Shown: in pieces, positions 15,525-32,613 of the stretch
How the letters are laid out: the number at the start of each line of letters is the position of its first letter
How positions within the stretch are numbered: the stretch's first letter is position 1
Assembly (NCBI GenBank): GCA_021323395.1
Contig: JAJONL010000026.1
Span: forward strand, 1 to 37,601
Reading direction: 5' to 3'
DNA length: 37,601 nt
Origin: Nitrospira sp.
Lineage (GTDB): Bacteria > Nitrospirota > Nitrospiria > Nitrospirales > Nitrospiraceae
Notes under the pieces: generated by a model
Databases searched by the model: none
What the model was told of the DNA's origin: nothing
What the model saw: the letters and a program-made list of their open reading frames with translations, nothing else
Program-made: the position numbers and the translations under genes

Positions 15525-16280
15525 CTACATGAACTTCATGAATTTCTCTTTGGCTTCATCCATCACTTGGGCGGTGATTTCTGTCAGCCCGCGTTCCTTG
15601 GCAATCCGCTCAATCTCGCGTCGGGCCATCGGCCGAATGAAGTCGGGGATGTTGTCCATGCGCTGCTCGGCATCCTTCGTCCAGGCAATGCCGTTGGGGG
15701 AATCATTTTTCGAATCGTCCATGACTTGCAACGTAATGTTTTTATACCCCTGTTTGCGCGCATAGGCTTCGACACTGCTCTGGACCATCGGCTTCACAAA
15801 CGAGGGCAAGCGCTCCAATTTTTCTTTGGCATCGGCCGTCCAGGTGAATTCACTCGTGCCGTTTCCGTTTTGCGGCTTTCCCCCTGAGGTTAATCCCATT
15901 TCCGCCACCATCGCAGAGAATGGACAACCGCCGGAAGTCTTTTCTACATTGGACGGAGGTGCACTAGGCTTTTCCGAAGTCGTCGCCGGTTGCCCGCTTT
16001 GGATCTTTTCATTGAGGTAGGCGGCCATCTGCCCTGCGCCAGCCTGCGCTTCATCTTTCAGAGTCCCGCGAGTCATTTCGAACGGTTCAGCCGTCTCTGT
16101 ACGGCCTCCCAGCTTCACACCCAGCGAGGCGACCATTTGCGTCTCGCCCGGATTGGTCACCATGGAGAATTTGGCCTCACAGGATGGGCAGCCGAAAAAG
16201 ACCCCGAGTGAGCCCTCACCAGGTTTTTCGACCTTCTGAAACGTCATGTAGGTCTCGCAGTTCAGGCAAACGAACTTCAT
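15525..16280 (-). CDS. zinc-ribbon protein with two PCP_red domains
   Basis: This 251-residue protein opens with a CxxC...CxxC zinc ribbon (Cys5, Cys8, Cys31, Cys34). A Gly/Pro/Ser-rich linker containing GGCPF (Cys119) follows. Two PCP_red-like units lie at about 145-191 (FTWTADAKEKLERLPSF) and 198-248 (IAWTKDAEQRMDNIPDF), each ending in an ITxxVMD helix. Such units are known from the C-terminus of BchB/ChlB. Here they stand alone, apart from any nitrogenase-like subunit. GGAGGAGG before the ATG gives a strong ribosome site. It lies 26 bases after an Mrp-type ATPase and directly before a His-rich membrane protein. The function is unknown. A role in metal or tetrapyrrole handling is only a guess. 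Confidence 0.75.
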   Translation of the reverse strand: MKFVCLNCETYMTFQKVEKPGEGSLGVFFGCPSCEAKFSMVTNPGETQMVASLGVKLGGRTETAEPFEMTRGTLKDEAQAGAGQMAAYLNEKIQSGQPATTSEKPSAPPSNVEKTSGGCPFSAMVAEMGLTSGGKPQNGNGTSEFTWTADAKEKLERLPSFVKPMVQSSVEAYARKQGYKNITLQVMDDSKNDSPNGIAWTKDAEQRMDNIPDFIRPMARREIERIAKERGLTEITAQVMDEAKEKFMKFM

Positions 16281-16306: not shown

Positions 16307-17233
16307 TTACAGCTTTTCCGCCAGGACTTTTTTGTAATCCAGTAACGATTGAATCCGCCCGACGATTTCCTGATATTTCTGAATCGTCGGATAGTCAGGA
16401 TCGAGGAGCGGCTGCCCCTTATCGAATGTCTTGGCTAATTTACGATCGAATGGGATGCGACCGAGCAGCGGCAAATCCAGCACATCGCACATTGCCTCGG
16501 TATTTCCCTCAAACAGTTCGTTCTCCGCCCCACAGGAAGGGCAGCGAAACTCGCTCATGTTCTCAACGATGCCCAAAACGCGTATCCCCATATCCCGCGC
16601 GTAGGTGACGGACTTCTGTACTACATCGGAAGCGACCTCAGAAGGTGTCGTCACGACGATCGCGCCAGCGAGATCGGGAATGAATCCCGCAATGACCGGG
16701 GGTTTATCGGCAGCGGCCCCTGGCGGGAGGTCTGCCAGCAAATAGTCCAGCTCTCCCCAGATCACATCGGCCAGGAATTCCCGGATGACGTTCATTTCCA
16801 TCAGGCCCAGCCATACGGGACTCAGATCCATCGGTCCCTTCCACCGCACCGGCGAGGCATCGTCGAGGAAAAAATCCATCGAAGCCACCTTGATGCCGAG
16901 CGGCCCGACAGGAGGCAACGCCCCCTCTGGGGTCATGGTCAATGACTGGCCATGAAGACCCATCATTCGCGGGACACAGGGGCCATTCAGATCGACGTCG
17001 AGCAAACCCACTTTCGCGCCCTGCCGTGCCAGCGCCAGCGCGAGATTGACGGTGGTCATGCTCTTCCCCACTCCGCCCTTTCCGCTCATCACTACTAACT
17101 TTTGCTTGACGCCGGCCATTCGCGCCTGCACCTGCTTCATCTGGGCGGTGATCTGCTGAACGACTTTGGCATCGTCCGAATATTGGAGCTTCGTGAGGAT
17201 CGATTTCAGATCCTTGCTGGCCGCGATGGTCAT
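16307..17233 (-). CDS. mrp: Mrp/ApbC-type P-loop ATPase (Fe-S carrier family)
   Basis: This 308-residue protein has the deviant Walker A GKGGVGKS at 51-58, then LLDVDLNGPCVPRMMG, a LADLPPGAAAD switch region, and a late CPSCG pair that in this family bridges an Fe-S cluster between two subunits. It belongs to the Mrp/Nbp35 group of Fe-S cluster carrier proteins. The MIP18-like N-terminal domain of many bacterial Mrp proteins is absent and is replaced by a short helical lead of about 45 residues. Context with two small genes of unknown role suggests delivery of clusters to, or cooperation with, the PCP_red protein. That is inference. Confidence 0.87.
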   Translation of the reverse strand: MTIAASKDLKSILTKLQYSDDAKVVQQITAQMKQVQARMAGVKQKLVVMSGKGGVGKSMTTVNLALALARQGAKVGLLDVDLNGPCVPRMMGLHGQSLTMTPEGALPPVGPLGIKVASMDFFLDDASPVRWKGPMDLSPVWLGLMEMNVIREFLADVIWGELDYLLADLPPGAAADKPPVIAGFIPDLAGAIVVTTPSEVASDVVQKSVTYARDMGIRVLGIVENMSEFRCPSCGAENELFEGNTEAMCDVLDLPLLGRIPFDRKLAKTFDKGQPLLDPDYPTIQKYQEIVGRIQSLLDYKKVLAEKL

Positions 17234-17312: not shown

Positions 17313-19160
17313 CTAGATTGAATACTGAATGGGGGACTTTGTGCCGGCCGTTTGGAGCAACACGCCCCGCCGCTTCAACTCCTCAAGGATCTCGCGGGCA
17401 GCGCCATCGAAATCCTGGGGTCCGGCAAAGTGCAGATCGGTATTTGGCGGTGGCTCTTCCCCGGCCCTGCTCATATGCACGGCGATGACCGGAGCCGGCT
17501 GAACCAATGTCCTGATCATCTCCGCCATCCGCTGATAATTGATGCCGAAGGTCTTACTCGTTGACACCACAATGAGCCCCGTATCGATGAGAAGTCTGGC
17601 AACCTCGCCGTACCGGCGCACCCGTTCGGCCGCAAAGGACGGATCGGCAGCAGATAGATCCGCATCCAATCCCTGCAAAAGATTCTCGCCTTCCAACAAA
17701 TAGGCATGCCGGCTATCGGCGACCAATAATGCCTCTACCCGTCTGGCCAAAAATGTCTTCCCGGTCTGGGCCGATCCCGTGAACAACACAATGGCGGCCC
17801 GGTGCCCGTACTGTTCGGCTCGATCCTCTGACCGAACATCCCCTGTGAGCCAGGCATATTCCCGCTGCCGGGCCTCCTCGCGCAGGCCTTCCTGCTCATC
17901 ATGCACAAGCTCGGTGATAATTCCGCCGCCGGCAATGTCGTATTCATCCACCAGGACGAATCGCCCTGTCGATTCAAATGATGACGACAGATCGAAGGCC
18001 AGCGGCGCCTTGACGCGTAAGGTCAACTCGGCTACCTGATTCCTGGTCACCGACTGACTCTCTTGAAGCTGCGCCAGATCGGCGGTATCGATAATGCGGT
18101 GAATCGCGGCCACCTCACAAGCCACTTCTCGCGTGGCGAGCCGCAAAGAATATTTTCGCCCCTTTTCAAGCGGTCGGCGCCCCATCCAGAACAGGTTCAC
18201 GCGAATGGCCGTCGAGACCAAGGGAATCGAATCCCGATGCGAGGCAATTTCTCCACGCTCCACGAAGATCTGTTCGTCGAGCGTGATCCCGACCGACTGA
18301 CCGGCTAGCGCTTCACTGGGCGGCGGTTCGACATTAAATCCTTCGATCGACTGCACCAGGGCCGTTTTATTCGAGGGCGAGAAGACCAGCTGGTCTCCGA
18401 CCTTCAAGCGACCGGCCGTGATGCGTCCGGCCAGGATTCGTCGCGCGTCGAACTTATAGACGTCCTGGAGCGGAAACCGAAGTGGTTGCTCCGAGCGAAC
18501 CCGTTCTTTCTTGAAGAGAGCTAACGTCTCCAGCACCGTGGGGCCTTGATACCAACTCATGTTCCCGCTGCGCAACGCGATGTTATCGCCTTGCTTGGCG
18601 CTGACCGGAATCATCTGTTGCGGAACCGCCCTGAATTGACCCAAAAATTCGCGGTATTCTTTTTCGATCCCCTCGAACACATCCTGACGATAGCCCACCA
18701 GGTCCATTTTGTTGACGACCACTGCGAACTGCGTCACCCCCAGCAGCGACAACAAATAGCCATGTTTCTTCGACTGCTCGCGCACACCCTCCAGGGCATC
18801 GATCAACAAGAGTGCGGCTTCAGCCCGAGCGGCGCCCGAGATCATGTTCTTCAAAAACTCTTTGTGTCCGGGGGCGTCGATGATGATGTATTGTCGCCCG
18901 TTCCAGATAAAGAATGTGCGCGCCGTGTCGATCGTAATGCCCTGCTCCTGCTCTTCCAAAAATGCGTCGAACAAAAAGGCGTACTCAAACTCCTTGCCCT
19001 GCTGACGGCAAATGGCCTGGACCTTTTCCAGCTTGCCTTCCGGCAATGACCCAGTATCGGCGTAGAGTCGCCCCACCAAGGTGGACTTCCCATGGTCCAC
19101 ATGGCCCACGATGACGATGTTGAGACTTTCCTGCGGCTTGGTCTGTTCGTCCTGTGTCAT
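17313..19160 (-). CDS. cysN: sulfate adenylyltransferase subunit CysN fused to a degraded APS-kinase-like domain
   Basis: The N-terminal 430 residues (615 in all) are a full CysN GTPase: [25 protein letters not shown] and NKMD, followed by two beta-barrel domains. With CysD it makes APS from sulfate and ATP, driven by GTP hydrolysis. Residues from about 450 form a P-loop domain placed like CysC in CysNC fusions, but its motifs have decayed. The P-loop is GSAQTGKT, the usual DGDN is EGEN, and the KGLYKKAR region near the end is missing. APS kinase activity is therefore doubtful. The ATG at 19160 is preferred to a GTG at 19169. It lies downstream of cysD, as in cysDN operons. Confidence 0.9.
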
Positions 19161-19244
19161 ACGCTTCACTCGCTCAATGACGCCCTAATTTTATATGGTC
19201 GCGGTTCGTACACCCATCAGCCGCAGCGGCCTGCGCCAACCGGC

Positions 19245-20042
19245 TCACATGTAACCTTTCTTGCGGAGCATTTCCATGCCGCGCCCCGCGTCCTGCGCCC
19301 GACCCGCCCGCTCGGCCACATGGCTTCCACGGAGTTCTATGATAATCTCGTCGACCGTCTTCGCCGTGGATTTGATCGGCATGGTACAGGGCGCGCAGCC
19401 TAAGCTGCGATACCGTGTCCCGTCTCCCCTATCGAGGTAGAGATCCATGAAGGGAATGTTTTCGTGCTTGATGTATTCCCAAATGTTGATCTCAGTCCAA
19501 TCGAGAAGCGGATGAATTCGAATATGCGTGCCGGGCGGAAAAGTCGTTTTGAATTGATCCCACAACTCCGGTGGTTGATCGCGGAAATCCCAGTCCCCAT
19601 GTTTGTCGCGAGGCGAAAAGTACCGCTCCTTCGCCCTGGTGCTGTCCTCATCCGCGCGGACCCCGAGAATAATGCCCGTGTAGCCCTTTTCTTCAACCAA
19701 ATCCTTCATCGCATTTGTCTTCAACGCCGTACAGCAGACATCTCGGCCCAAGGTATGGTTCATGCCCGCCGCCAGCGCTGCCTTGTTTTGCCCCACGACT
19801 AAATTCAATCGCCACTCCCGGGCTATTCGATCGCGATATTCGATCATCGCGGGAATTTTGTAACTCGTATCCACGTGCAGCAACGGAAAGGGCACACTTC
19901 CGAAAAACGCCTTGCGCGCCAACCACAGCAGCACGGTGGAATCCTTCCCCATGGACCACAGCATGGCCAGGTGATTGAAATGTTTATAAGCTTCGCGAAG
20001 GATATAGACACTTTGATCTTCGAGCTGACGCAGATGTTTCAT
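19245..20042 (-). CDS. cysD: sulfate adenylyltransferase subunit 2
   Basis: This 265-residue PP-loop enzyme carries SMGKDST near residue 31 (the ATP pyrophosphate-binding loop), [30 protein letters not shown] and [12 protein letters not shown]. All are typical of CysD. It joins sulfate to ATP to form adenosine phosphosulfate, with CysN supplying GTP energy. The length is somewhat short of E. coli CysD (302 aa), with a compact C-terminus ending RKKGYM. It sits 17 bases after the TrpD-like gene and about 84 bases before cysN. Confidence 0.96.
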
Positions 20043-20059: not shown

Positions 20060-21127
20060 TTACGCGGAAATGCCGACCCTTGTCGCAGCCCCAGCATCGG
20101 CTCCGGCAACGGCTGCCAATTCGCCCAGCTTGGCCTTGGCTTGCCCAGATTCGAGCGCGCGACGGGCTATCTCAAGATTTCCAGCGATGGAGGCTCCCTT
20201 ACCGGCGGCGTACAGCAACATGGCGGCATTGAGAAGCACCCAATCCCGCTGCCCTCCCTGAATCTCATTGGCCACCAGCCGCTTGATCAGATCAGCTTCC
20301 CGCTCCCGCTGTTCGACGGGAAACCCGGCCATTTCGCGGAAGGTGGCCATCGTCAGACTCGCATCTTTTGGCTGAAATGTGAACGGAGTGATCCGTTCAT
20401 CCTTGAGTTCCAGGAGCCGCGTGACGTTGCCGATCGAAAGTTCTGGATCGCCTTCCACCCCGCGGATCACCAACGCCCGCGGACAGCTCAACATGCGCAA
20501 CGCCTCAACGGTCTTTTCAAAATACGGCGGGTGCGACAGGCCGATCACCTGCGAGGTTGCGCGCGCGGGATTGAGCATTCTCGCTATGGGATGGAAGACA
20601 TTCCGCACGCCCAATTCTTGCCGCATTTCCAAAAACCGGCTTACCGGCGGGTGATACAGCGCTAGGTCCAAATAGGCTAGCCCTTTCTTCTCCAATTCAG
20701 CCCCGACCAATTTGGCAGTCAAATCGACCGGAATCCCCAACAGTTTCAGCACCGACGAAATGCCGCGCCGATCCGGCGGCCCATCCACTCCATGTAACAA
20801 GAACACCGCGCCTGCGGCTGCTGCGACAATCGCGGCCGGAATGATCGCGTGGAACGTTTCTCGCTTGCCGGCGTAGACAGGCACATCGACCACCCCCAGC
20901 CCGGCGCTAACCGGCACGGGAGGAACGTATTGTCGCGCCGTGGCGGTGAAGGCGGCTAATTCCGTGACGGATTCAGACTTGAAGCGCATGGCGATGAGAA
21001 AGGCCCCGATTTGCGCCGGCGTAGCGGTGCCTTCGATCATCAGGCGCATGGCCTGTTTGGCTTCTTCCCAGGTGAGATCTTTCGATGTCTTCTGGCCCTT
21101 GGCGACTTTGGCGAGCAGATGTTGCAT
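20060..21127 (-). CDS. anthranilate phosphoribosyltransferase-like protein of unknown substrate
   Basis: This 355-residue protein has the TrpD architecture: an N-terminal helical domain (WEEAKQAMRLMIEGTATPAQIGAFL), then an alpha/beta domain with RNVFHPIARMLNPA and RALVIRGVEGDPE. The residues TrpD uses for PRPP and anthranilate are altered. The GTGGD loop is replaced around 81-92 (DVPVYAGKRETF), and the KHGNR loop is replaced by LHGVDGPPDRRG at 111-122. It therefore belongs with TrpD-like paralogues (TrpD2/YbiB type), not with tryptophan synthesis. Its place between cysH and cysD, with gaps of 17 and 42 bases, implies a job linked to sulfate reduction or siroheme/nucleotide chemistry. What it does is not known. 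Confidence 0.75.
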   Translation of the reverse strand: MQHLLAKVAKGQKTSKDLTWEEAKQAMRLMIEGTATPAQIGAFLIAMRFKSESVTELAAFTATARQYVPPVPVSAGLGVVDVPVYAGKRETFHAIIPAAIVAAAAGAVFLLHGVDGPPDRRGISSVLKLLGIPVDLTAKLVGAELEKKGLAYLDLALYHPPVSRFLEMRQELGVRNVFHPIARMLNPARATSQVIGLSHPPYFEKTVEALRMLSCPRALVIRGVEGDPELSIGNVTRLLELKDERITPFTFQPKDASLTMATFREMAGFPVEQREREADLIKRLVANEIQGGQRDWVLLNAAMLLYAAGKGASIAGNLEIARRALESGQAKAKLGELAAVAGADAGAATRVGISA

Positions 21128-21169: not shown

Positions 21170-21898
21170 TTATTTGTGCAGTCCGCACTCGGTCTTGCCG
21201 AAGTTCTTCCACCGACCCGAGCGAGGATCGTCTCCCGGAAGGACAGGCGCGGTGCAATGCGTGCAGCCGATGCTGGGATAGTTGCGATCGTGCAGGGCGT
21301 TATAGGGCACTTCGTGGAGTTGGAGATACGTCCAGACGTCTTCACTGCTCCATCGGGCCAGCGGGTTCACTTTGATGAGGTTGAATTTCTTATCCCATTC
21401 GATCAAACCAGCGTCGGCGCGGGTCGGAGCCTGGTCTCTCCTGATCCCGGTGATCCAGGCACGGTAGTTCGCCAGGATGCGGCTCAGCGGCTCGATTTTC
21501 CTCAGCTCACAACACTGGTCGGGCTTGCTCGCCCACAGAGCCGGACCGTGTTGCACGGCTTGTTGGTCGGGCGTCAACTGCGATTTCATCTGAATCACCT
21601 GCGCCGGCCTCAGCCCATAATGTGCGATGATGCGATCACGCACGTCGATGGTTTCGGGAAACAGAAAATCGGTATCCAAATAAAACAGCGGCGCGTCCGG
21701 ATCGATGCGGTGCATCATATCCACTAGCGCCACGTCTTCTGCTCCAAAGCTGCAGGCGAGCACAATCTGCCGCGGATACGTCTTCAGTGCGTACTCCAGC
21801 ACGTCCCATGGCTGCTTGGCCTCAAACGAGTCGCTGAGCGCCTTGAGATCCTCATCCGTCGGACGCCGAGTTGACGTGTGGCTGTTGTTCAGTTCCAC
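21170..21898 (-). CDS. cysH: assimilatory adenylylsulfate (APS) reductase
   Basis: This 242-residue protein has the PP-loop-like ACSFGAEDVALVD and DTDFLFPET. It carries the paired cysteines Cys129-Cys130 and the pair Cys212/Cys215 (GCTHC), which together bind a [4Fe-4S] cluster. The cluster marks the APS-using type; PAPS-only enzymes lack it. The catalytic Cys238 lies in ECGLH at the C-terminus. The enzyme reduces APS to sulfite with thioredoxin. Direct use of APS removes the need for APS kinase, in agreement with the decayed kinase domain on CysN. It begins 10 bases after the sulfite reductase gene. Confidence 0.94.
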   Translation of the reverse strand: MELNNSHTSTRRPTDEDLKALSDSFEAKQPWDVLEYALKTYPRQIVLACSFGAEDVALVDMMHRIDPDAPLFYLDTDFLFPETIDVRDRIIAHYGLRPAQVIQMKSQLTPDQQAVQHGPALWASKPDQCCELRKIEPLSRILANYRAWITGIRRDQAPTRADAGLIEWDKKFNLIKVNPLARWSSEDVWTYLQLHEVPYNALHDRNYPSIGCTHCTAPVLPGDDPRSGRWKNFGKTECGLHK

Positions 21899-21908
21899 TA
21901 GTTAATCC

Positions 21909-24275
21909 TTACGCTTCGACCTTCTCCACAAGAATCTTGAAATGCTTCGCTTCGGGCTCTAATGGTCCCTCATTGAGAATCTTATGTCCGTCGTTCCGCA
22001 AACTCACCGGCACATTTCGAATGGGCTCTCCCGCATCCAGCCACACTTCGAGTTGCTCCCCGTTGTCCATCATCTCCAGCTTCAATTTGGTCTTCACATA
22101 GTTCATTGGACAGGCGACGCCACGTAAATCATACACTGGCGCCTGAACGGCCGCGACAGGTGCGGGTGCAACTTTTGAAGCGGCAGCGGGCACGGGTTCC
22201 TCTTTCACTGGCGCCAATTTCAAATCTTTCCCCATCTGCTCTGTGGCCGCCCGACAGACAGCGAGGAATTGTTTGGCAAAGGCCATTTTCTCGTTTGCTG
22301 CTCCGGCTGTCGCATCCTTGGACCCGAGATCACCCACTTGCGCGCCGAGCTTTTGATACATGGCCGGCACACTGCCTTTGTTAGCCAGGCGTTGATCAAA
22401 CTCCTGGAATGTGTCGGCGTCAGTCGCGGGGTCGATCCCTTCGGTGACCAGCAAGGCCTTGGCGGCAGCCAAGACGGCGCGATAGGACTTGTTGACCGAT
22501 AGAGCATATTGATGTTTCTCGACGAGCAGTTTGGCCTGATAGAGTTCTTGATCGGCCTCCAGCATACGGTCGTCGATCATTTCCAACGCCCCGCCGGCGC
22601 ACTCGCCGGGCCCCAAATCCTCCAGCACGAATTCGGCCTCGCCCTCCCAATCATAGTAGTAGGTCTGGTCTTGATCGTAGGGCGGCACGATCGTATAGGG
22701 AATAAGTTCGTCCTTGAGCGCGGCTTTGCCGACCCGCTCAATGAAGTGTTGGAGAGTCTCCCCGCTTTTCCGATCGCGTCGATAGACGTCCACCAGGTGT
22801 CGAACGGCTGACGGAACACTCTTCGCCGGCAGTTTCACGGTCAGCTGTCCGATTTTCGGCGTGCCATCGACATGGCCGCCGAGATGCAATTCATAGTGCG
22901 GCGCCGTGTGTTCACCGAGCCGCTTGCCGACTCCATGCAAACCGATGGTCGCAATATGGTGTTGGGCACAGGAATTATGGCAGCCGCTGATTTTGACGCT
23001 CACATCCCTGAGATCTTCGGGCACCTCACCGGCAGGAAATACTTCGGCCAATGCCCTGGCCATTCCCTTGGACGAGGTGATGCCCAAGCCGCAGGTGTCG
23101 GTGCCGGGGCAGGCAATGATGTCTTCGACGAGTTCGGCGCCCGGGTCGCCCAAGCTATGTGTCACAAGTTCATCGTAGAATTCTTCCAGCCGTCCTTCGG
23201 TGATCCATCGGATGACCATGTTCTGATTGATCGTAGTGCGGATGTTTCCATTAGAATAACGCTCGGCCAGATCGGCGACTGCCCACATTTGGTCGCCCGT
23301 GAGGTCCCCCATCGGCAATTTAATCGCCGCTGTCGCAAAACCCGCTTGGCGTTGCGGCACCACGTTGGTGCGCTTCCAGGCTTGAAATGCCGTCAGATTC
23401 CCATTGAACGAAGTGCCTCCATTGCTGTGACCGTTCCCATTGGTATGGATCGGCGCCTTGGTCGGCATAAGCAATGGCGGCTCATCGGCATACTCCAGCA
23501 GCTTGATGGGCTCATGTGTCGGCACCGCATAACCCATGGCCGCATAGGCCGCTTCCCAGCGCCGCTTGAATTCATCGAATCCCAGCTTCTCGATCACGAA
23601 CTTCATGCGGGCCTTGTTGCGATTCTTGCGGTTCCCGAGCGTGTCGAACACCTTGATCACGGCTTCGATGGTGGGAAGCAGTTCGTCCATCGGCGTAAAT
23701 TCTCTAAGCACTTGAGCTATGCGAGGAGTCGATCCCACAATCTTAAATTTCCGAGGCAGGCTCTGGTTGAGCGGATTCCGCAGGAGATGCAAGGCCACGG
23801 TCTTTGCATAGGGCGTGACATCGAAGACTTCCCCTTGGCACACCCCGGCAAGATGGCAGGCCGTGACATTTCGCACCGTATTCGCGCAGGCTTCGCGAGT
23901 GGTCAGTCCCACGGAGGCCAGCAGGCGCATGATTTCTGGGACATGTTTGAGTTCGACAAAGTGGAGCTGAATATCCTGTCGGGTCGTGACATGACCCACG
24001 CCGGTGGCAAACTGATCAGCGATCTCGGCAACTTGGCGCAACTGGTTTCCCGTCAACCCTCCGAACGGGATCTTAATCCGCACCATCTGCACGCCGGGCT
24101 GTCGCTGGCCGTAAATGCCATATTGCAGCCGAAACGGCTTAAAAATATCGTTGGAGAGATCTCCGCCCAGCACACGTTCGGCTTCGGCTTCAAAGGTCTC
24201 AATTTCTTCAGCTATATGGGCTGGAATGGGCTCGGTCTTAATCGCCGGACGGAGACCCACGCTGTTAGGACTCAT
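21909..24275 (-). CDS. sir: ferredoxin-type sulfite/nitrite reductase with C-terminal TusA-like domain
   Basis: The protein (788 aa) begins with two ferredoxin-like/siroheme reductase halves, with CPGTDTC (Cys389, Cys395) and GCHNSC (Cys432, Cys436) binding the [4Fe-4S]-siroheme centre. This part (about 1-530) equals a normal NirA/Sir. Then comes a helical region (about 560-690), an Ala/Pro-rich linker, and a TusA-like domain (about 714-788) with RGVACPMN and its sulfur-accepting Cys722. With cysH and cysDN as neighbours, sulfite is the likely substrate and sulfide the product. Six electrons would come from ferredoxin. A TTG at 24281 is in frame, but the ATG at 24275 has GAGG eight bases upstream. 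Confidence 0.92.
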   Translation of the reverse strand: MSPNSVGLRPAIKTEPIPAHIAEEIETFEAEAERVLGGDLSNDIFKPFRLQYGIYGQRQPGVQMVRIKIPFGGLTGNQLRQVAEIADQFATGVGHVTTRQDIQLHFVELKHVPEIMRLLASVGLTTREACANTVRNVTACHLAGVCQGEVFDVTPYAKTVALHLLRNPLNQSLPRKFKIVGSTPRIAQVLREFTPMDELLPTIEAVIKVFDTLGNRKNRNKARMKFVIEKLGFDEFKRRWEAAYAAMGYAVPTHEPIKLLEYADEPPLLMPTKAPIHTNGNGHSNGGTSFNGNLTAFQAWKRTNVVPQRQAGFATAAIKLPMGDLTGDQMWAVADLAERYSNGNIRTTINQNMVIRWITEGRLEEFYDELVTHSLGDPGAELVEDIIACPGTDTCGLGITSSKGMARALAEVFPAGEVPEDLRDVSVKISGCHNSCAQHHIATIGLHGVGKRLGEHTAPHYELHLGGHVDGTPKIGQLTVKLPAKSVPSAVRHLVDVYRRDRKSGETLQHFIERVGKAALKDELIPYTIVPPYDQDQTYYYDWEGEAEFVLEDLGPGECAGGALEMIDDRMLEADQELYQAKLLVEKHQYALSVNKSYRAVLAAAKALLVTEGIDPATDADTFQEFDQRLANKGSVPAMYQKLGAQVGDLGSKDATAGAANEKMAFAKQFLAVCRAATEQMGKDLKLAPVKEEPVPAAASKVAPAPVAAVQAPVYDLRGVACPMNYVKTKLKLEMMDNGEQLEVWLDAGEPIRNVPVSLRNDGHKILNEGPLEPEAKHFKILVEKVEA

Positions 24276-24330: not shown

Positions 24331-24783
24331 TCAGATATGGTACATCAGCGTATATTGTGCTTCGAGGGCTCGCTGGCGATTGGCCAGTTCTTCCACCGTC
24401 ACTTCGGACAGCACACTCAGCTCAGCACGTTTCACACGATCCCAGATGTGTGCCAGCAAGGCTTCTTGCTTGGCGCCACGTGAAGAAGCGGTCTTCGAAA
24501 CAGATACCCCGTTGTTTGCCAAGAGGGGGCCCTCCAAAGCATCCAGAATGTCGGCCACGGACACGTCCGAAGGTTTCCGACTGAGCACGTACCCGCCTTG
24601 AGCCCCGCGCTGGCTTGTCACCACCCCTGCCTTCTTCATGGCATGGAGCACCTGTTCGAGAAACCGAGACGGAATCGATTGACGTTTCGCGATCGATTTG
24701 GCGCACACTGGCTGTTCGGCATGGTGTAATGCAAGATCTACAGCGGCAATAATTCCATAGGTGGCTCGAAGACTAACCTTCAT
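24331..24783 (-). CDS. Rrf2-family transcription regulator, CymR-like
   Basis: This 150-residue protein starts MKVSLRATYGI and has the Rrf2 winged helix (IPSRFLEQVLHAMKKAGVV) and wing SQRGAQGGY, followed by LADI-type helices. The three clustered cysteines that bind Fe-S in IscR and NsrR are absent. Indeed the only cysteine is near residue 27. It is therefore of the cluster-free kind, like CymR, which in Bacillus controls cysteine genes together with a cysteine synthase. It is the first gene of the sulfate-assimilation run and sits 55 bases upstream of sir. It most likely regulates this operon and itself. Confidence 0.87.
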   Translation of the reverse strand: MKVSLRATYGIIAAVDLALHHAEQPVCAKSIAKRQSIPSRFLEQVLHAMKKAGVVTSQRGAQGGYVLSRKPSDVSVADILDALEGPLLANNGVSVSKTASSRGAKQEALLAHIWDRVKRAELSVLSEVTVEELANRQRALEAQYTLMYHI

Positions 24784-29302: not shown

Positions 29303-29341
29303 GTGACGGGAAAGTCCTGATCGATCGGATTTTCCCGTCAC
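29303..29341. terminator. hairpin between convergent rplT and pheT
   Basis: GTGACGGGAAA (29303-29313) pairs perfectly with TTTCCCGTCAC (29331-29341), an 11-bp stem with inner TCC/GGA pairing in the loop. It lies between the ends of two convergent operons and overlaps the pheT stop codon. No T-run follows on either strand, so it may act as a bidirectional barrier or mRNA stabiliser as well as a terminator. Confidence 0.5.
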
Positions 29342-31056
29342 GCTTCATCCAGCAGCCGGTCAATCTCCAGCTCCAACGCGACGGTCGGCACCCCTATTTG
29401 CCAGTGGTCCAGCACCGCGGGATGCACCTCTCCCAACAGCCCCATCGTTCGACCATTGCAAACGATTCTTCCCGCTCGGCCGTCGAGAAATGATGGATGG
29501 ACCAGCGGCTCCAGGGCAAAAGGACGATCCAGGTAATACAGCAGCAGATCGAGGCAGGAATGAATTTCTGAAAAATTGGCCTCGGCATGGGCAATCACCG
29601 CCCCCAGCATCGTCACGGTGCGAGATCCCACGTCCACAACCTTATCAGGAACCGCCACCTCCCCGACCTCGAACAGGCGGTGGGGATAAAACGCGCGGCT
29701 TGAATTTGTCTCCACCTGCAGCAGCGATGGAGTGATCCATTGGCGCAGGCAGGAGTAACTGAGCGACATCACGTTATCCACTTCCACAACGTTCGCCCAC
29801 TCCGTACCATCCAGCCGCATCCTGGTGCAGAAGTCCTGGTGAGAACCCATGATATTGGAGATGATTTCCTGGAACTCCATGCCCACCATGAGATGACGCA
29901 CTCGGTCGGCCATCTGCTCCAAGCGTGACAGGCCGCCGACCGTGAATTGAGACGGCATCACCGGCGCAAAGCGCGCGTACCCTTGGCTGATCGCCACATC
30001 CTCCACTACGTCGACGGTCTGCAGGAGATCGTTTCGATAGGGCGGGAGCTGAACCGTTAACTTCTTCCCGACAGACTTCACCTCATAACCATAGGACTTC
30101 AGCGCCGCAGCCACCTCTTGCCCACCCAAGGCTTCTCCCAAGGCCGATTCAATAGCTTTGAGGGGAATCGAGCGAGGCTTCCCAAAATCGATGGGAGTAT
30201 TCCATCGCCGGCCAAAGGTCGTTTTCACCGGTGACTGGATCTCTACCGGCGTAATCACCGCACCACGATCGGCCAGATTGGCAGCAAATATATTCAGCGC
30301 CAAAGCGACCATCGGGAGATCGGTCCCCGTGACCTCGACGAATAGTTCGTGATCCCCAACCTGAACCTCGCCGACTTCCCGACTGTTGATGATTGGAGGA
30401 AACGATAACACTTGTCCCTTGGCATCCCGCAGCACCGGAAGGCGATCATGGCTCCCCACGATGGCCCCATACTCCACGCCCTTGGGATGAACCATGAGAA
30501 TTTCCCGCAATGTCAACAGCGTCTCCATCCCAAGCGGGGTAAACTTCACATCATCCGGTTTCACGAGGTCATACGAGACGGGAAAGCGGATGGGCGCCAA
30601 GCGGTACAATCCAATGGACACCGTTCGCCGCTTGCGCCCGAAAATATCGGCGAGCTTTTCCTGCGTCTGAATAAGTTGCGTCAGGCCAGTGGCCGTTACC
30701 CTGTAACCCACCGCCGCGCAGGCGGCGACGTAGGGGCGAATCTTCTCCATACCCGGCGCCACGAGCAATTTGCCGATCACAGGCTTCTGTTTGTCGAAGA
30801 AAGAATAGGGAATCGCCGCCCCGCGCTGCTTGATTCGAATCTGTCTGGCAATGCCTTCGCAACACCACAGGTCCGGCCGGTTGCTGTCCTGTAGCTCGAT
30901 GCGTAATTCACCCGTCTCCGGGTTGTGCCCCTTCAACTCTCCCTTCACCAGCATCAGCCAGTCTTCAAGCTGATCGGGTGGAATTCGATCGGCTGTCTCG
31001 CCTGGCCCGGCAATCAGGGCTTCGAGGTCTTCTCGTTGCACAGCGATAGTCGGCAT
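29338..31056 (-). CDS. pheT: phenylalanyl-tRNA synthetase beta subunit, archaeal/eukaryotic type
   Basis: This 572-residue protein is about 230 residues shorter than the usual bacterial PheT (about 800 aa). It begins directly with MPTIAVQREDLEAL and the motif DSNRPDLW, as archaeal and eukaryotic beta subunits do. The EMAP-like tRNA-binding domain at the N-terminus and the ferredoxin-like anticodon-binding domain at the C-terminus of bacterial PheT are both missing. It carries the B3/B4 editing region (about 100-260), B5, and a catalytic-like C-terminal domain. The partner alpha subunit, upstream by 12 bases, is of the same type. Archaeal-type PheRS is known in spirochetes, so transfer into bacteria has precedent. 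Confidence 0.9.
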   Translation of the reverse strand: MPTIAVQREDLEALIAGPGETADRIPPDQLEDWLMLVKGELKGHNPETGELRIELQDSNRPDLWCCEGIARQIRIKQRGAAIPYSFFDKQKPVIGKLLVAPGMEKIRPYVAACAAVGYRVTATGLTQLIQTQEKLADIFGRKRRTVSIGLYRLAPIRFPVSYDLVKPDDVKFTPLGMETLLTLREILMVHPKGVEYGAIVGSHDRLPVLRDAKGQVLSFPPIINSREVGEVQVGDHELFVEVTGTDLPMVALALNIFAANLADRGAVITPVEIQSPVKTTFGRRWNTPIDFGKPRSIPLKAIESALGEALGGQEVAAALKSYGYEVKSVGKKLTVQLPPYRNDLLQTVDVVEDVAISQGYARFAPVMPSQFTVGGLSRLEQMADRVRHLMVGMEFQEIISNIMGSHQDFCTRMRLDGTEWANVVEVDNVMSLSYSCLRQWITPSLLQVETNSSRAFYPHRLFEVGEVAVPDKVVDVGSRTVTMLGAVIAHAEANFSEIHSCLDLLLYYLDRPFALEPLVHPSFLDGRAGRIVCNGRTMGLLGEVHPAVLDHWQIGVPTVALELEIDRLLDEA

Positions 31057-31068
31057 CGTATGCTCGTC

Positions 31069-32613
31069 CTAAAAACTTCCGCGCATGGTGCGGATGAAAT
31101 CGAGATCCGCAGAGAACAGGTCACGGATGTCGTGAATGCCCAACGCCACCATCGCCATGCGATCGAGGCCCAGTCCCCAGGCAATGACCGGCACGGCCAC
31201 CCCAAGTGGGCAGGTCACTTCCGGTCGAAACAACCCGGCGCCACCCAGCTCCATCCAACCCAACTTGGGATGACGCACATGCATTTCGACAGAGGGCTCG
31301 GTGAAGGGGAAGTAGGCCGGCAGAAATTTGACCTCTTTGGCCTGCGCCACTTCCGTCGCAAACAGGTTCAGCAACCCAAGCAAGGTCCGAAAATTGATAT
31401 CAGCGCCTAACACAATTCCTTCCACCTGAAAAAAGTCGGTGGCATGGGTGGCATCGACCTGATCGTATCGAAAGCAACGCGCAATCGAAAAATACTTCCC
31501 CGGAACGGCGGCACCCCCGGCCAATGTACGGGCCGACACCGCCGTGCCTTGACTGCGCAAAACCAGACGCTTGGCGCGCTCCGCGTTAAAGGTATATCCC
31601 CACCCCGACGACTCGGCTCCCGTTCCCTGTTCATGCACCTGCGCGACACGCGTCAGATAGGGCTCGGCAATGGAGGGCGCATGGGTCGGGTTCTTCACGA
31701 AATACACATCGTGAATGTCGCGGGCCGGATGGAATTGCGGCATGAACAACGCATCCATATTCCAGAACTCGGTTTCGACGAGGGTCCCGCGCATCTCCTG
31801 AAACCCCATACTGACCAACTTCAGCTTGACGAGGTCGAGAAACTCTCGATAGGGATGCCGTTTCCCCGCGGCAATCCTCGGCGCCCGCAGGCTGATCGTA
31901 TATTTTCGGAATCGCTTGTTCCGCCAGGCACCCTCCTTGAGAAGGTCCGGCGTCAACTGCGAGACTTCTTCGGTCACCCCCTCTCGTGAGAGCTGCTGGG
32001 CCACAGCCTGCCCGCTGGTCGTCAGCAGGAACGACCGCGTGACTCGCTCGTCGATCCTGAATGGCTCTCGGGCATTCCCACGCTTCACGGCATGTTGCTG
32101 AAGAACATCCCGCAGCGGCTCGGCAAAAGTCTGCAGTTCCCGCTGCCCGCTCCGCAATTCCTGCAACAGGGCGCGCATGGCCTCCGCGGTGGGACTGGGC
32201 CGGCCGGTGCTTTCAATGCACCCCCCTTGCACGATCAGGATCGAGCCTTCTTTTTTAAGGCTCCCCACCGCCTTGCTGACATCCGACGGTTCGAGGCCTT
32301 GGTTGCACTGTATATCCTGAATCGTGAGGCGTTTTCCGGTCTGTCCGGCCTCTCGAGCTGCGGAGAGCACCCGCTCGATCGGGGAATATTTCTCAAAATA
32401 TAATTCGCCGATCGGCGTCAATGAAGCGAGATGCGCAACCGTTTCGGCATAAATCGCAATCAATGACTTGGCCAGCAGCCATTCGACAGCCATGCTCAGC
32501 TGGGATGGCTCCAACCCCGTGGACTCGGCAAGTTGATCAAGTGTGGGAGGCGAGTCTGGCTGTCGACTCAAGGCCAACAGCACGGTGCTTTCGAGGGGAT
32601 GAAGGTTATCCAT
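31069..32613 (-). CDS. pheS: phenylalanyl-tRNA synthetase alpha subunit, archaeal/eukaryotic type
   Basis: This 514-residue protein has two N-terminal winged-helix-like units (about 1-75 and 90-130, e.g. LDQLAESTGLEPSQLSMA and DVSKAVGSLKKEG) in place of the bacterial coiled coil. The class II catalytic core follows, with motif 2 FRYDQVDATHATDFFQVEG and motif 3 GLGLDRMAM. GGAGLFRPEVT is the archaeal/eukaryotic form; bacterial PheS carries a G-x-G-M-V-H-P form. The length also fits archaeal PheS (about 500 aa) and not the bacterial one (about 330-350). It charges tRNA-Phe together with PheT. It lies 30 bases downstream of rpe in an fmt-rsmB-rpe-pheST run. Confidence 0.92.
   Translation of the reverse strand: MDNLHPLESTVLLALSRQPDSPPTLDQLAESTGLEPSQLSMAVEWLLAKSLIAIYAETVAHLASLTPIGELYFEKYSPIERVLSAAREAGQTGKRLTIQDIQCNQGLEPSDVSKAVGSLKKEGSILIVQGGCIESTGRPSPTAEAMRALLQELRSGQRELQTFAEPLRDVLQQHAVKRGNAREPFRIDERVTRSFLLTTSGQAVAQQLSREGVTEEVSQLTPDLLKEGAWRNKRFRKYTISLRAPRIAAGKRHPYREFLDLVKLKLVSMGFQEMRGTLVETEFWNMDALFMPQFHPARDIHDVYFVKNPTHAPSIAEPYLTRVAQVHEQGTGAESSGWGYTFNAERAKRLVLRSQGTAVSARTLAGGAAVPGKYFSIARCFRYDQVDATHATDFFQVEGIVLGADINFRTLLGLLNLFATEVAQAKEVKFLPAYFPFTEPSVEMHVRHPKLGWMELGGAGLFRPEVTCPLGVAVPVIAWGLGLDRMAMVALGIHDIRDLFSADLDFIRTMRGSF

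Follow-up and report, generated by a model that had tools for sequence, protein, structure and literature searches.

Gene and domain organisation

On the minus strand of the window (the whole stretch of 37,601 nucleotides that was analysed), one open frame of 788 amino acids runs from an ATG at 24275 to a stop at 21909-21911, and its product consists of a sulfite reductase-type (Sir) module, a HEPN domain, an Ala/Pro linker, and a TusA domain, in that order. In a Pfam profile search, NIR_SIR and NIR_SIR_ferr (two repeats), HEPN, and TusA all scored above the curated cut-offs, with the HEPN match covering residues 570-619 (E 5.5e-6, 27 bits against a cut-off of 22) and the TusA match (PF01206) covering residues 715-785 (E 5e-15). 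The NIR_SIR repeats are whole in relatives and shortened in the window copy. An earlier note on this DNA had described a sulfite reductase fused to a helical module and a TusA-like domain, and this was confirmed by the single frame and the Pfam domains; the TusA cysteine lies in CPMN and is Cys722, in agreement with the note, and the domain search that it had proposed for the helical stretch (residues 560-690) returned HEPN. The note had given no strand, and it mentions neither the HEPN identity, nor Cys559 at the end of the Sir module, nor the second N-half cysteine set, nor the 38-residue loss in this copy. That the family is a siroheme sulfite reductase follows from homology, and its activity is predicted. 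The features of the gene and of its surroundings are as follows.

24331..24783, minus strand: Rrf2-family regulator, upstream gene
21909..24275, minus strand: Sir-HEPN-TusA fusion gene, 788 aa window copy (frame, Pfam, and surveys)
23913..24113, minus strand: first NIR_SIR_ferr ferredoxin-like half domain, residues 55-121 (Pfam)
23838..23858, minus strand: N-half Cys140-x5-Cys146, first half of a putative second siroheme/[4Fe-4S]-type cysteine set (alignment)
23742..23750, minus strand: Lys176-Phe-Lys178 (PRKFK), presumed two-lysine sulfite-type substrate motif (alignment)
23738..23739, minus strand: junction of the 38-residue (114 bp, in-frame) deletion, Ile179/Val180 (alignment)
22968..23111, minus strand: C-half siroheme/[4Fe-4S] cysteines 389, 395, 432, and 436 (CPGTDTC, SGCHNSC) (alignment)
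22599..22601, minus strand: Cys559 of GPGECAGG, end of the Sir module (alignment)
22215..22592, minus strand: predicted HEPN four-helix domain (Pfam and predicted structure)
22140..22211, minus strand: Ala/Pro-rich linker (sequence)
21912..22139, minus strand: TusA domain (Pfam and alignment)
22110-22112, minus strand: predicted TusA active cysteine, Cys722 in CPMN (Pfam and alignment)
21170..21898, minus strand: APS/PAPS reductase, CysH-like
20060..21127, minus strand: TrpD-like glycosyl transferase family 3 protein, conserved in the operon
19245..20042, minus strand: PAPS_reductase-domain protein in the position of CysD (sulfate adenylyltransferase subunit 2), named CysD from gene order and sequence
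17313..19169, minus strand: CysN GTPase fused to an APS-kinase-like domain
16307..17233, minus strand: Mrp/NUBPL Fe-S P-loop ATPase, next in the operon

Distribution of the fusion

The same three-part protein was found in 41/41 genomes of the first survey, a few copies being truncated by contig ends, and in 80 further GenBank loci, among them the complete genome of Nitrospira moscoviensis. When genomes were sampled across Nitrospirota, about 119 of 295 carried HEPN and TusA in one frame of roughly 800 residues; within Nitrospirales the fusion was present in every genome sampled, bar one in which it was truncated by a contig end. Outside the order, several families of the class and of the phylum Nitrospirota also had it. 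Since the fusion is found in all sampled Nitrospirales, in other Nitrospirota families, and in complete genomes, an artefact joining two genes was ruled out; the fusion is real and old.

Variants of the arrangement were also seen. In family f7, two genomes carry Sir-HEPN and TusA as adjoining separate genes, and in one genome (L134) two tandem TusA domains follow Sir-HEPN. Plasmid-borne relatives in Bacteroidota (Aureibacter, Persicobacter) consist of Sir and a HEPN-like region at which the protein stops, without TusA; this HEPN-like region rests on the alignment, because its Pfam HEPN scores are below the cut-off. When the whole protein was searched against plasmids, Sir-only and Sir-HEPN relatives were recovered and no TusA fusion was among the matches listed, and the HEPN-TusA part used alone as query against plasmids gave no matches. 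A second siroheme reductase, a DsrB/AsrC-like protein with two ferredoxin motifs, is independently fused to TusA (L150:5036-7550) and is followed by a Usp gene and then, two genes away, by a cysK-like gene.

Conservation of cysteines and motifs

Cysteines were surveyed in 113 aligned homologues, and residue numbers are those of the window copy unless stated. The C-half Cx5C...Cx3C siroheme-[4Fe-4S] cysteines (389, 395, 432, 436) are present in 113/113, and Cys130 is invariant or nearly so. A further four-cysteine set, also of the form Cx5C...Cx3C (residues 140, 146, 184, and 188 in the homologue L024), lies in the N-half and is complete in 111 of the 113, consisting of Cys140, Cys146, and two cysteines that are missing from the window copy; Thermus and one Nitrospirota family have part of this set, and Bacteroidota have none of it. 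The spacing and conservation of the set suggest a second site of the siroheme-[4Fe-4S] or [4Fe-4S] kind, comparable to DsrA/DsrB. The substrate-binding Arg and two Lys are invariant in the alignment, the lysines lying in Lys176-Phe-Lys178 (113/113), a two-lysine KFK which we take to be a sulfite-type substrate motif. Cys559 in GxGECA is likewise invariant (113/113), and since the Sir of Thermus oshimai (L267:5947-7671) ends in GRGECAV, the GECA cysteine is the tail of the Sir module itself.

In all 112 homologues with a TusA domain the motif Cys-Pro-x-Asn is invariant, Asn replacing the last Pro of the canonical Cys-Pro-x-Pro in 112/112, and a related free-standing TusA carries CPYN. The fused domain is read as working like TusA with the variant motif CPxN, and persulfide carriage is predicted. 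TusA is also the most conserved of the modules, the mean distance between homologues being 0.39 for TusA, 0.49 for Sir, and 0.67 for HEPN, and the distances obtained from the three modules correlate with one another (Mantel p 0.001).

The HEPN module

Structure prediction for the isolated HEPN region was confident (pLDDT 85, pTM 0.79), and the first structural matches of the model were solved HEPN domains (2hsb, Z 16.2, rmsd 2.5, 119 residues aligned); together with the Pfam match above cut-off (PF05168), this indicates that the helical part is, as modelled, a four-helix HEPN fold. The full-length AlphaFold model was poor (pTM 0.33, many segments with pLDDT <50) and was not used for the distance between Cys722 and siroheme. 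An RNase or toxin function for HEPN was ruled out by the lack of a conserved Rx4-6H motif, which is absent from the window copy and gave scattered, non-conserved matches in 9/114. HEPN domains often dimerise, and one improbable alternative is that TusA and HEPN are mainly structural or regulatory (dimerisation, or docking of ferredoxin or E1), with Cys722 carrying no sulfur. The retention of HEPN without TusA in the Bacteroidota relatives and the CPxN motif in place of CPxP favour this, but the Cys and Pro of the TusA motif are invariant and TusA is more conserved than the catalytic module.

A HEPN family that lacks the RNase motif and shows ‘fusions to a dyad of ferredoxin domains’ in Bacteroidetes and Nitrospirae was described by Anantharaman et al. 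in 2013 (PMC3710099). This family, HEPN-T (Cpin_6617), was probably Sir-HEPN seen at an earlier date, given that Sir holds two ferredoxin-like half domains and the HEPN is motif-less in both; sulfite reductase, TusA, and a function were not named there.

The window copy

An in-frame stretch of 114 bp, coding for 38 residues, is missing between Ile179 and Val180 of the window copy; the segment is present in every aligned full-length homologue and holds the second N-half cysteine pair, SGCxxDC. The NIR_SIR score of the window copy falls to 134 bits, whereas N. moscoviensis reaches about 196. Clean microhomology was not found at the deletion junction (23738/23739). The window lies on contig 21 of a single 3.5-Mb assembly of 234 contigs, and its relatives are all Nitrospira. 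The absence is either a true deletion or an assembly error: the allele was damaged recently or the copy was misassembled, and in either case the gene in the window may be inactive. We judge it somewhat probable that this gene lacks function or was misassembled, part of the N-terminal Sir lobe having been taken by the loss: among the aligned full-length homologues the segment is missing from this one only, the profile score is reduced, and there is a single assembly, in 234 contigs. Against this, the frame is preserved and the remaining gene differs from its relatives mostly by synonymous codons, which implies that any loss was recent. The functional reading given below concerns the Sir-HEPN-TusA family and not the window copy.

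Gene neighbourhood

The window operon is a sulfate-assimilation operon and is conserved in relatives. A protein with two PCP_red (protochlorophyllide-reductase-like) domains, at 15525-16280 of the window, is kept in this operon with the Mrp ATPase. Elsewhere in the window, at 29338-32613, pheT and pheS-like genes resemble the archaeal-type phenylalanyl-tRNA synthetase in length and sequence.

Other Nitrospirota have the fusion with Sat and AprAB in place of CysH/CysD/CysN. The gene order in one such locus (L134:275-9846) is Rrf2, TauE, AprA, AprB, Sir-HEPN-TusA-TusA, DsrH/DsrE-like genes, and Sat, and DsrE-type proteins are established TusA partners (see PMC3397948). The AprAB, Sat, TauE, and DsrE/DsrH-like neighbours in L134, L148, and L149 resemble sulfur-oxidation clusters, and in some lineages the direction might be reversed, with TusA giving sulfane sulfur to Sir for oxidation to sulfite and then, via AprAB and Sat, to sulfate. 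We regard this as highly improbable, because Nitrospirales pair the same fusion with the assimilatory set CysH, CysD, and CysN, and no Dsr, Qmo, or Hdr genes were seen beside the fusion.

Candidate acceptors of the sulfur

Complete Nitrospira and other fusion-bearing families contain a cluster of cysK, ThiF/E1, thrC, ThiS, NIL, ThiF/E1, and JAMM (in a complete Nitrospira, L207:6066-11153), in which the annotated E1 proteins have no rhodanese domain. Among the loci read, none had the ThiS cluster beside the fusion gene, the two being apart in all; in another genome (G117) a TusA gene directly adjoins the E1-JAMM-ThiS set. In the window's own assembly, the cysK and JAMM of the cluster were not found, most simply because the assembly is incomplete, and the idea that Nitrospira lacks cysteine synthase altogether was ruled out by cysK in the complete relatives. 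A search of the window's genome for the HcyBio/DUF39 homocysteine route gave no match. Almost every member of Nitrospirota that was tested has JAMM proteins, whether it carries the fusion or not, so their co-occurrence does not point to one acceptor.

Operons containing sulfite reductase, ThiS, JAB, and a rhodanese-less E1 were reported by Iyer et al. in 2006 always to contain SirA (TusA), which was proposed to act like rhodanese in them, and ThiS was found fused to Sir in some actinobacteria (PMC1779556). All parts of this class 4e (ThiS, JAB, rhodanese-less E1, and SirA/TusA) are present in the complete relatives, but in the loci read they do not share one neighbourhood with Sir.

A proposed tethered sulfur relay

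The reading that we put forward, and to which we give about an even chance, is that the proteins of this family are assimilatory sulfite reductases in which a built-in relay leads from Cys559 to Cys722 and on to a ThiS-like carrier. By homology, sulfite would be reduced at the C-half siroheme-[4Fe-4S] centre; Cys559, invariant in the GxGECA tail with which the Sir module ends, may then take up the reduced sulfur and pass it to Cys722 of TusA, which HEPN, as a scaffold or dimerisation module rather than an RNase, and the flexible linker would hold near the enzyme. TusA would hand the sulfur on, the likeliest final acceptor being a ThiS/CysO-like carrier activated by the rhodanese-less E1, a step suggested by the conserved cysK-E1-ThiS-JAMM cluster and the published operon logic. 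The ThiS-like thiocarboxylate would supply CysK for cysteine synthesis, and JAMM would release the product. Because TusA carries sulfane sulfur and full reduction gives sulfide, such a relay implies either interception after four electrons, as on DsrC, or reoxidation.

The earlier note had proposed that a carrier thiol tethered to the enzyme takes sulfur directly from the siroheme site; conservation and gene context support the tethered carrier in part, with a transfer of sulfur from siroheme to Cys722, its departure as persulfide, and the avoidance of free sulfide as putative consequences. In favour of the relay are the wide spread of the fusion in the phylum, the invariant TusA and GECA cysteines, the stronger conservation of TusA than of the other modules, the HEPN fold, the sulfate-assimilation genes around the fusion, the cysK-E1-ThiS-JAMM cluster with its rhodanese-less E1s, the TusA gene next to E1-JAMM-ThiS in G117, the 2006 prediction for SirA/TusA, the DsrE/DsrH-type neighbours, the split adjacent genes, and the independent siroheme-reductase-TusA fusion. 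Against it are the position of the ThiS cluster away from the fusion gene in all loci read, the near-universal JAMM, CPxN instead of CPxP, a Bacteroidota Sir-HEPN that works without fused TusA, and, in the window's own case, an assembly without the cysK cluster and a Sir copy short of 38 residues; moreover, CysK-type enzymes can use free sulfide.

The last point belongs to an alternative that we consider somewhat unlikely, namely that Sir releases free sulfide and that the fused TusA is a separate, IscS-charged persulfide carrier (for tRNA thiolation, molybdenum cofactor, or similar) which shares polypeptide and operon merely for co-expression or docking. In Escherichia coli, TusA is a general carrier charged from IscS, the window's genome also has two free-standing TusA proteins, and CysK in relatives scores as an ordinary cysteine synthase A. 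On the other side, the fusion is retained across the phylum and never without sulfite reduction, one of its versions is flanked by DsrE/DsrH-type genes, and TusA was joined to a second siroheme reductase independently. A stronger form of the tethered relay, unlikely as a whole, is that Sir releases no sulfide and halts at the persulfide level, with the sulfur on cysteines tethered to the enzyme in the manner of DsrAB and DsrC, and that this sulfur goes into cysteine synthesis by way of protein thiocarboxylates; Sir would also bind a second siroheme-[4Fe-4S] centre in the N-half and would then be a one-chain analogue of DsrAB plus carrier.

Comparison with known systems

Many of the main nitrite oxidisers belong to Nitrospira, as do the comammox organisms. 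If the relay were true, sulfate assimilation in Nitrospira would avoid free sulfide, and one purified protein would allow a test of the link between sulfite reductase and ThiS-type carriers through SirA/TusA that was predicted in 2006. The fusion also offers a covalent model of sulfur hand-over from a siroheme reductase to a cysteine carrier. In the CysO/CysM/Mec (Mycobacterium) and HcyS/HcyD/HcyF (Wolinella) pathways, a ThiS-like carrier, an E1, and a JAMM protein are grouped with a PLP sulfhydrylase, as in the Nitrospira cluster, and the sulfur comes from free sulfide or rhodanese; we know of no Sir-TusA fusion in either.

With the NirA/Sir-type sulfite reductases (NCBIfam PRK09567, PRK13504; PDB 1zj8, 1aop, 5h8v), the fusion has in common two lobes, the C-half cysteine motif, the KFK lysines, and a sulfate-assimilation operon, but it scores below the NCBIfam equivalog cut-offs and adds the GxGECA tail, HEPN, TusA, and the second N-half four-cysteine set. 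With the class 4e operons (PMC1779556), it shares a scheme in which SirA/TusA couples sulfite reduction to a ThiS-like carrier, and the actinobacterial Sir-ThiS fusions likewise carry a sulfur carrier at the Sir C-terminus; here, however, the fused carrier is TusA, attached via HEPN, and the ThiS cluster lies elsewhere in the genome. In the open-licence papers searched, no description was found of Sir fused to HEPN or TusA, or of the GECA cysteine; the coupling of sulfite reductase to a carrier was foreseen, and it is the covalent Sir-HEPN-TusA form and the GECA cysteine that were not found described. In the TusA-DsrEFH system, DsrE/DsrH-type proteins are linked to TusA, as in L134. In DsrAB-DsrC a cysteine protein takes sulfur at a siroheme reductase, as is proposed for Sir-HEPN-TusA; DsrC is a separate protein, whereas in the fusion the carrier is joined covalently to a Sir that consists of one polypeptide.
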